Source of the DNA: Mycobacterium sp. UM_CSW
Lineage (GTDB): Bacteria > Actinomycetota > Actinomycetes > Mycobacteriales > Mycobacteriaceae
Assembly (NCBI RefSeq): GCF_000455205.1
Contig: NZ_AUWQ01000033.1
Location: 1 to 64,000 of the forward strand
Direction of reading: 5' to 3'
Length of the DNA: 64,000 nucleotides
The translations under genes were made by a program, and so were the position numbers. The first letter of the stretch is position 1. Each line of letters begins with the position of its first letter. Below, piece after piece: positions 56,291-57,895 of this stretch. The notes beneath the pieces were generated by a model. It was not told the origin of the DNA. It worked only from the letters and a program-made list of their open reading frames with translations, and did not search any database.

Positions 56291-57895
56291 ATGAGTTTTC
56301 TGACGTCACCGCCAGAGATTATTTCTTCTCTGCTCCATTCCGGCGCAGGGCCGACGCCCATGCTGGCCGCTTCCGCGGCGTGGGATGGGCTTGCCGCCGA
56401 ACTCGGTACCGCGGCGCAGTCGTTCTCCTCGATCACCTCCGGTTTGGCCGCCGACGCCTGGCAGGGGCCCGCCTCGGCGGCGATGCTGTCGACCGCGGCG
56501 CAGTACTCGGCGTCGCTCAGCGCGGCGGCGGCGCATGCGCAGACGGCCGCCCTCCAAGCCCAGGTGGTGGCCGGCGAGTTCGAATCCGCCCTGGCCGCCA
56601 CGGTGCATCCCCTAGTGGTCGACGCGAACCGGAACCAGCTTGTGCAGCTGGTGTTCTCCAACCTGTTCGGGCAAAACGCGCCCGCCATCGCCGCCACGGA
56701 AGCCGCATACGAGGAGATGTGGGCCCAGGACGTGTCCGCGATGGTCGGCTACCACGGCGGGGTTTCGGCCGCCGCGGCCGAGCTCTCGTCGTGGGCGTCC
56801 GCGCTGCAGGCGCTGCCGGCCCAGGCGTCCGCTGCGATTGCCAACCCGGCGGCCGCCGCCCCCGCGGCCATCGGTTCGCTGACCTCCGCGGCCAGCAACC
56901 CACTCGGGAACCCTGTCCAGGCGTTGGAAACCTACGCCGCCGACATCATCAATTTCCCGACCGACATCTTGTTCGGGCGCCAGTTGATTCCCACCGGGCC
57001 ACAGTCGCTAGGCACCAGCGCGACGGTGGCCCCTGGCGGTAATTCGGCCACCGCACCGCTGACGGTCTTCGCGGGAACCGAGCCGTTGGTGAACGCCTCG
57101 GTCGGCACCGGATCGGCCGTGCCATTGCTGGTCGACACCGGCTCCGCCGGCCTCGTCATCCCGTTCACCAGGGTCGGCGGCCTATTGGGCGTGCTCCAGA
57201 TGGGCATCCCCATCGGAGGCGGCATCGGCGGTTACAGCGGGGGACTGGACTACCTCTACCTGACCTACAACGCGCCGGTGAATTTCGGCGGCGGGCTGAC
57301 GACCGCGTCCACCCCCGTCAACGTCGAGTTCCTGGCGTTCCCGGTGTCAATCCAGTCCGCGATGACCAACGGCCTGACGTTCCAGTCCTTCTTCGCCTCC
57401 GACGGCGCCTCCGGCGTCCTGGGAGTCGGGCCCAATGCGGGCGGCCCGGGTCCAAGCATTCCGCTCCAGGCGCTGCCGTCGCCCTTGAACCACGGTCTGC
57501 TGATCAACCAAGACACAGCCAGTCCTTATTTGCAGTTCGGTGACCAGCCGACAATCGGCGGCCACTCTGTGTTGACCACCCTCCCGCAAATGCCGATTAC
57601 TGGCTTGGACGTGACCGTCACTCACGGCGCCACTACAACTTCGTTTCCAAGTGTCCAATCGATTGTCGACTCCGGCGGTGTAGAAGGCACGCTGCCAACG
57701 GGCCTTGGCGCGTCGCCCGGGGACCTGATTCAGGTCTTCGACGGCAGTAATCACCTCCTCTACTCGTACACCTACAACGGGGACTACTTCCCGACGCCGA
57801 TCTCGAGCGGGTTGATGAATACCGGCAACCTGCTTTTCCAGCAGCACCCTGTCTACATCAACTACGGCAACGGCACCGCGACCGTCTATCAGTGA
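56291..57895 (+). CDS. PPE protein fused to a PecA-type aspartic protease domain
   Basis: 534 aa. PPE domain (1-180; SPPEIISSLLHSG, FGQNAPAIAATEAAYEEMWAQD) for ESX-type export. An Ala-rich linker (170-230) leads to a pepsin-like domain with two catalytic Asp motifs: D282 in LLVDTGSAGLVIP and D460 in SIVDSGGVEGTLP, about 178 residues apart, as in retropepsin-like PecA. The end YSYTYNGDYFPTPISSGLMN..VYINYGNG is the family C-terminus. PecA domains that I know are linked to PE, not PPE. G+C drops to 55-60% around 57541-57660. Probably a self-cleaving or PE/PPE-processing surface protease (inference). Confidence 0.88.
   Translation: MSFLTSPPEIISSLLHSGAGPTPMLAASAAWDGLAAELGTAAQSFSSITSGLAADAWQGPASAAMLSTAAQYSASLSAAAAHAQTAALQAQVVAGEFESALAATVHPLVVDANRNQLVQLVFSNLFGQNAPAIAATEAAYEEMWAQDVSAMVGYHGGVSAAAAELSSWASALQALPAQASAAIANPAAAAPAAIGSLTSAASNPLGNPVQALETYAADIINFPTDILFGRQLIPTGPQSLGTSATVAPGGNSATAPLTVFAGTEPLVNASVGTGSAVPLLVDTGSAGLVIPFTRVGGLLGVLQMGIPIGGGIGGYSGGLDYLYLTYNAPVNFGGGLTTASTPVNVEFLAFPVSIQSAMTNGLTFQSFFASDGASGVLGVGPNAGGPGPSIPLQALPSPLNHGLLINQDTASPYLQFGDQPTIGGHSVLTTLPQMPITGLDVTVTHGATTTSFPSVQSIVDSGGVEGTLPTGLGASPGDLIQVFDGSNHLLYSYTYNGDYFPTPISSGLMNTGNLLFQQHPVYINYGNGTATVYQ

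Follow-up and report, generated by a model that had tools for sequence, protein, structure and literature searches.

How did a PecA-type protease of mycobacteria come to sit behind a PPE domain and not a PE domain? The question is raised by a gene on the plus strand at positions 56291–57895 of a 64,000-nucleotide stretch of Mycobacterium sp. UM_CSW DNA (contig NZ_AUWQ01000033.1; the whole stretch is referred to as the window), the product of which joins a PPE domain to an aspartic protease domain of the PecA family, an architecture that we call PPE-PecA. PecA is exported to the cell surface, cleaves itself and trims PE_PGRS proteins and LipY (PMC6819658). As we describe below, PPE-PecA is a genuine form of a known protease family, under selection and found many times, and its intermediates are preserved. 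We consider it probable that it is a PecA-family protease with an exchanged export module, which arose by a once-only replacement by a PPE domain, is exported by an ESX-type system and trims PE_PGRS proteins and LipY.

Domain architecture of the fusion protein

The gene is an uninterrupted open reading frame (ORF) that starts with ATG and encodes 534 amino acids. PPE proteins are characterised by a PPE domain of about 165 residues with a PPE motif and a WxG motif, and the window protein has all of these: residues 3–165 (56297–56785, plus strand) match Pfam family PF00823 (E 8.3e-57), and P7-P8-E9 and W57/G59 are not only present but invariant across 31 aligned PPE-PecA. The PecA-type aspartic protease domain at residues 254–528 (57050–57874, plus strand) matches PF20729 (PE-PGRS_C aspartyl peptidase-like; E 1.7e-81, 273.9 bits against a cut-off of 33) and the NCBIfam model NF038019, ‘PecA family PE domain-processing aspartic protease’ (score 217.8 bits, cut-off 150, covering model positions 2–270 of 278). 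By alignment, the first catalytic motif is DTGS with D282 (57134–57145, plus strand) and the second is DSGG with D460 (57668–57679, plus strand). An earlier note, made from the letters of the window alone, had proposed an intact PPE domain ahead of a PecA-family protease domain with Asp motifs at these two places and had suggested a comparison with protease family profiles; on each of these points it was correct. The closest solved sequences are PPE15 (5xfs, E 1.3e-33) and the protease domain of PE_PGRS16 (4ehc, E 2.9e-32).

Between the two domains lies a GRPLI-like segment (residues 208–233, ...INFPTDILFGRQLI; 56912–56989, plus strand), an apparent remnant of a PE_PGRS linker in which the motif takes the degenerate form GRQLI; it scores 19.2 bits with a hidden Markov model (HMM) built from PE-linked PecA only. 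Pfam reports no PGRS match (PF21526) in the window protein, and its linker contains only 8% glycine. Because a PPE domain stands in for the N-terminal PE domain of PE_PGRS35/PecA, we do not file the protein under the PE_PGRS proteins. The ‘PE domain-processing’ model NF038019 thus reaches its cut-off in proteins that have no PE domain, namely in the window protein and in six out of six other PPE-PecA tried. The E-values and the existence of 35 homologous fusions exclude a chance match, and an assembly artefact is excluded because some of these fusions sit in assemblies of one to three contigs (G195, G230, G261).

Catalytic motifs, fold and selection

Both catalytic motifs, in the forms D[TS]G[ST] and D[STN]GG, are retained in all 35 distinct PPE-PecA. 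Structure modelling predicts that the protease half adopts the bilobal pepsin-like fold of PE_PGRS16. The ratio of nonsynonymous to synonymous substitution rates is about 0.16–0.33 in the protease part, 0.07–0.17 in the PPE part and 0.2–0.6 in the linker; the protease part is under purifying selection. It could be argued that the domain is no longer an active protease, or no longer the same one, and now functions at the surface as a structured module, which is possible for PE_PGRS16, the proteolytic activity of which could not be demonstrated despite intact motifs, according to work cited in PMC6819658; the decay of second gene copies, seen as relics in the window and in loci L058 and L061, points the same way. 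Against this stand the universal retention of both motifs, the purifying selection on the protease part and the separation of the PPE-PecA clade from 4EHC in the trees described below, and we regard a loss or change of activity as improbable.

Distribution among mycobacteria

A search of 297 genomes of the genus with the protease domain gave matches in 110, and 60 regions taken from the best hits contain 72 protease-domain ORFs: 28 linked to PPE, 28 to PE, and 16 of another kind or cut by a contig end. Addition of named genomes and further loci brought the set to 135 distinct protease domains: 35 linked to PPE, 44 to PE, 46 other (without PE or PPE) and 10 cut. Here ‘distinct’ is defined by a 120-residue stretch, whereby two near-identical PPE-PecA were merged and five pieces shorter than 120 amino acids were dropped. 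The 35 PPE-PecA are spread over 22 genomes, 17 from the set of 297 and five further records (L137/L155, L146, L149, L150, L152), and the carriers are a group of slow growers, among whose named members are M. interjectum, M. terramassiliense, M. paraense, M. alsense, M. bohemicum, M. helveticum and M. palustre. Species in which a PE-linked PecA adjoins cfp21 are M. attenuatum, M. gastri, M. innocens, M. ostraviense, M. persicum, M. simiae, M. simulans and M. szulgai. A scan of contigs of named genomes gave 66 loci, none of them labelled M. tuberculosis or M. marinum. When plasmids were searched with the fusion protein, 18 records matched, each with its best place within the PPE part only, and none matched over more than 80% of the query.

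We make no claim that PPE-PecA and canonical PE-PecA exclude each other: the 18 PPE-type genomes (including G139, where the protein is truncated at the N-terminus) and the 26 PE-type genomes (selected from the 297-genome search) have none in common, but only about 1.6 shared genomes would be expected by chance among 297. Two further observations concern the family at large. PF20729-like domains also occur outside Mycobacterium, in seven genomes of another genus in the order (L217–L223, six above the cut-off) and in Deinobacterium chartae. One mycobacterial genome (G172:C1) has two PecA-domain matches about 66 kb apart, at 3573356–3574138 and 3639981–3640763, with equal score, identity and frame length; the one that was retrieved (L094) has neither a PE nor a PPE domain.

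Origin of the fusion

A careful tree of the protease domain, built from 69 of the 132 rows of a quick tree, places the 35 PPE-linked proteins together with three contig-cut proteins on one side of a branch (support 100/98). The sister of this group is a PE-linked pair (L164 and L179; 99/91), and the next relatives are a group of PE-PecA that includes the cfp21-adjacent genes (91/87). The group remains intact (100/99) in a third tree of 41 rows, 40 of the 132 plus 4EHC, in which PE_PGRS16 falls outside the group formed by PPE-PecA and the PE-PecA of the cfp21 locus (97/96). In a tree of the PPE domains, all 35 PPE-PecA likewise form one group, joined by three protease-less PPE ORFs that are contig-cut or truncated, and the PPE domain of PPE-LipY lies apart from it (99).

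The linker retains further traces of a PE_PGRS-type ancestor. An HMM of the GRPLI region, built from the 38 of 44 PE-linked PecA that have an exact GRPLIG, matches 34 of the 35 PPE-PecA (11.8–49.4 bits), the one miss, L152, having a degenerate motif. It also matches 11 of 24 PE ORFs without PecA and a single one of 40 PecA-less PPE ORFs of at least 250 amino acids, which is cut by a contig end and is itself a PPE-GRPLI-PGRS protein. Early-branching PPE-PecA (both copies in L071, and those in L073 and L075) have PGRS-like linkers with 27–31% glycine, and in all three that were submitted to Pfam (L071:3150-4961, L073, L075) PF21526 lies between the PPE and protease domains. As judged from these GRPLI and PGRS remains, the whole region ahead of GRPLI in a PecA of PE_PGRS type was most likely exchanged for the PPE domain. 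The phylogeny and the linker together back the earlier note’s proposal that the export domain was exchanged from PE to PPE, and the PPE-linked clade that it had anticipated at the cfp21 locus exists; a single exchange within the PecA lineage of that locus is the most likely course of events.

Could a PPE gene instead have been fused to a PecA of the signal-peptide type or to a free-standing protease gene? Material for such an independent origin exists in the 46 mycobacterial PecA domains with neither PE nor PPE, one of which, the long-branched L107, adjoins the PPE clade in the quick trees. We consider this scenario already disfavoured, and indeed very improbable, as GRPLI is found in 34 of 35 PPE-PecA and PGRS in the early-branching ones, only one of the 46 scores for GRPLI at all (9.9 bits), and the PPE clade has a PE-linked sister in the careful tree, which was built after the removal of L107 and 62 other rows.

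The cfp21 locus

The window contains a Cfp21-like cutinase gene at 54630–55424 on the minus strand (PF01083, E 3.7e-55; by eye, a Met near 55301 is the likelier start), which we call cfp21, following the label in the earlier note. It lies about 0.9–1 kb from PPE-PecA, in line with that note, although the two are not direct neighbours because a methyltransferase ORF intervenes (f19; 55348–56118, minus strand), as it does in L128, L129 and L150. On the plus strand at 58055–59014 follows f4, an ORF that by eye resembles a multi-pass membrane protein. In most of the PPE-type loci that were mapped, and in the PE-linked sister L179, f4 is located beyond PecA/cfp21, and cfp21 directly adjoins it in four PecA-less genomes (L131–L134).

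A survey of cfp21 neighbourhoods, which the earlier note had also proposed, places PPE-PecA within 7 kb of a cfp21-like gene in 32 of 35 cases, always on its 5′ side and on the opposite strand; the other three have none in reach. Among the 44 PE-PecA, 15 lie on the 3′ side of cfp21 on the opposite strand and 28 have no cfp21 within 7 kb, the exception being the PE-linked L092 (G105) on the 5′ flank. Rv1983 presumably adjoins cfp21 in M. tuberculosis, and this arrangement of PE-PecA beside cfp21 was observed in named relatives (L158–L161, L165). The PPE-type locus L152 and the PE-linked sister L179, which come from the same series of metagenome-assembled genomes (MAGs), have the gene orders f3-f12-<cfp21-[PPE-PecA>]-f4 and f3-f7-[PE-PecA>]-<cfp21-f4, respectively. 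The protease had been called the positional equivalent of PE_PGRS35: the common neighbourhood stands, as these two maps illustrate, but the slot differs, with PE-PecA 3′ of cfp21 in 15 of 16 cases and PPE-PecA 5′ in 32 of 32. Given these opposite flanks, the exchange is not a swap within one and the same slot.

That the neighbourhood is conserved, with cfp21-like genes no more than 7 kb away in 32 of 35 PPE-PecA and 16 of 44 PE-PecA, could mean that PPE-PecA acts on the adjacent Cfp21-like cutinase. The linkage is loose, however, reaching about 5.7 kb for PPE-PecA and 42–57 kb from the best cfp21 match for PE-PecA in five genomes (G006, G045, G108, G203, G228), and cutinase matches (E ≤ 1e-40) occur in 290 of the 297 genomes as compared with PecA matches in 110. 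Furthermore, the window cutinase has neither a PE nor a PPE domain and by eye begins like an ordinary signal sequence, so the earlier suggestion that cutinases are processed is not supported; we consider the cutinase a most unlikely substrate. Two other loci deserve mention here. The window genome has a second PecA-cutinase neighbourhood (L115, G000:C123), formed by a PE-linked PecA paralogue at 2421–3890 and, 32 bp further downstream in the same orientation, another cutinase ORF at 3922–4527. A MAG from a bog contains a short PecA fragment that most resembles PPE-PecA, 5′ of cfp21 (L202, 5947–6204), together with a PE-linked PecA on a different contig (L164).

PPE-PecA often forms tandem arrays of two or three copies (G285, G249, G134, G017, G259, G201, G230, G261). 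In the window, 57921–58016 (plus strand) encodes the C-terminal 31 amino acids and stop codon of a lost second copy, with 29 of 31 residues identical to copy 2 of L137, and comparable copy-2 relics are present in L058 and L061. We rejected the notion that the window relic is a leftover of an ancestral PE_PGRS35, as the best-scoring PE-linked match is 69% identical. In G058 (L061, 9483–10100), copy 2 is a protease-less PPE ORF followed by nine residues like the PecA C-terminus (a weak match, E 0.57), which is probably a separate decay event.

Elsewhere in the window, the ORF at 50186–51631 (plus strand) encodes a PPE-SVP protein that ends in a SHOCT domain (PF09851, E 4.2e-9), an unexpected tail on a PPE protein, and a 1144-amino-acid ORF at 60175–63609 (minus strand) resembles, by motifs seen by eye, a cyclase/ATPase/LuxR-type regulator.

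Candidate substrates

PGRS matches are present in all 18 PPE-PecA genomes (3–32 each, G139 counted), in all 26 PE-PecA genomes (35–76 each, scoring being capped at 75 candidates) and also in 8 of the 20 PecA-less genomes (1–11 each), the last group being hand-picked and uncontrolled for relatedness. This co-occurrence fits PE_PGRS proteins as substrates, and species relatedness could give the same pattern. The window genome also encodes PPE-LipY (L249/L256, 536 amino acids) as well as a PE-linked LipY-like protein.

PPE-PecA might instead have changed its preference from PE to PPE domains, cutting the latter off itself and off proteins such as PPE-LipY. The PPE-linked form is the best LipY match in 14 of the 18 PPE-PecA genomes, and surface PPE68 is reported to rise in the M. 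marinum pecABC mutant; in the same source, however, the processing pattern of PPE68 is unaltered (PMC9765416). PPE-LipY is also found in at least 14 of the 26 PE-PecA genomes (thirty loci were inspected in each LipY search and 17 matches were given no locus, hence a lower bound), and 4 of the 18 PPE-PecA genomes have no LipY-like match at E ≤ 1e-60. The exchanges in LipY and PecA are therefore not coupled, and matched swapping of the two is not supported. Since PGRS matches, too, persist in every PPE-PecA genome, we consider such a shift unlikely.

Discussion

The domains, the modelled fold, the conserved dyad, purifying selection, the single clade, the PE_PGRS-type linker remains and the genomic location all support a PecA-family protease with an exchanged export module. 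The history that we propose starts from a PE-GRPLI-PGRS-PecA protein at the cfp21 locus, in which a PPE domain would have taken the place of the part upstream of GRPLI, most simply in one event. Most descendants, the window gene included, would then have lost the PGRS stretch, and the gene would have duplicated in tandem. The PPE domain would pair with a PE partner encoded elsewhere and the protein would leave the cell through a type VII system, most likely ESX-5, to be retained at the surface via its GRPLI-type linker. There, by analogy with PecA, a protease with the D282/D460 dyad may trim the export domains or linkers of secreted PE/PPE-family proteins such as PE_PGRS and LipY and probably also its own.

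Several observations weigh against this reading. In the quick tree L107, a PecA without PE or PPE, separates the PPE clade from its PE-linked sister; the PPE-domain clade has a Shimodaira–Hasegawa-like approximate likelihood ratio of 94, under 95. The modelled PPE half is poor, with blocks at a predicted local distance difference test score of about 29–53, so its fold rests on sequence and the modelled half was not used. No PE ORF of at least 80 amino acids is present in window positions 47001–62000, and protease-less PE ORFs in the PPE-type regions taken from best hits are limited to L067, L069 and L074. The window genome has four more PF20729 places, at least three of them PE-linked, and PE_PGRS substrates could be served by those. 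Finally, the hand-picked comparison genomes make substrate co-occurrence weak evidence, and PE_PGRS16 shares fold and motifs without demonstrable proteolysis.

More tentatively, and as a doubtful extension, the exchange may have re-assigned a maturation protease to another secretion partner and chaperone, made the PGRS ‘sail’ dispensable and moved the cutting preference towards PPE-type cargo, with the PPE-PGRS-PecA of M. helveticum and relatives as surviving intermediates. If the proposed history is true, one exchange with its intermediates kept (PE-PGRS-PecA, PPE-PGRS-PecA and PPE-PecA) constitutes a natural experiment on whether a PPE domain can stand in for a PE domain as an export module and vice versa, whether PecA needs PGRS for anchoring, as the ‘sail’ model of PGRS as the outer-membrane root of PE_PGRS35 proposes (PMC9436101), and whether protease specificity follows the protease’s own export domain. 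PPE-PecA illustrates the re-wiring of secreted proteins in mycobacteria. A survey that looked for such domains reported aspartic proteinase domains in PE proteins only (PMC4758615), and we found no PPE-linked PecA in the titles and abstract openings of a literature search that covered some match lists in part, mostly open papers, and papers on ‘PPE-PGRS’ by listing.

How does PPE-PecA compare with known systems? With PecA/PE_PGRS35 (MMAR_2933, Rv1983) it shares the PF20729/NF038019 domain, both Asp motifs, the cfp21 neighbourhood and a GRPLI-type linker; it differs in having PPE in place of PE, in the loss of PGRS from most members including that of the window, in its position on the 5′ and not the 3′ flank of cfp21, and in its frequent occurrence as two or three tandem copies. 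In the trees, this lineage is represented by cfp21-locus relatives from M. gastri, M. innocens and others, MMAR_2933 and Rv1983 themselves being outside them. The protease domain of PE_PGRS16 (Rv0977, PDB 4EHC), which is PE-PGRS linked, occupies a separate branch. PecB and PecC, the PecA paralogues of M. marinum, are set beside PPE-PecA by their description only (PMC9765416). The closest parallel in kind is LipY, a secreted enzyme in which, according to the species, the lipase domain comes after a PE domain, a PPE domain or a signal peptide (PMC7550000), and through which export-domain exchange as such is already known. LipY is a different enzyme, and its PPE domain belongs to a separate clade, which makes its exchange an event independent of that in PecA.
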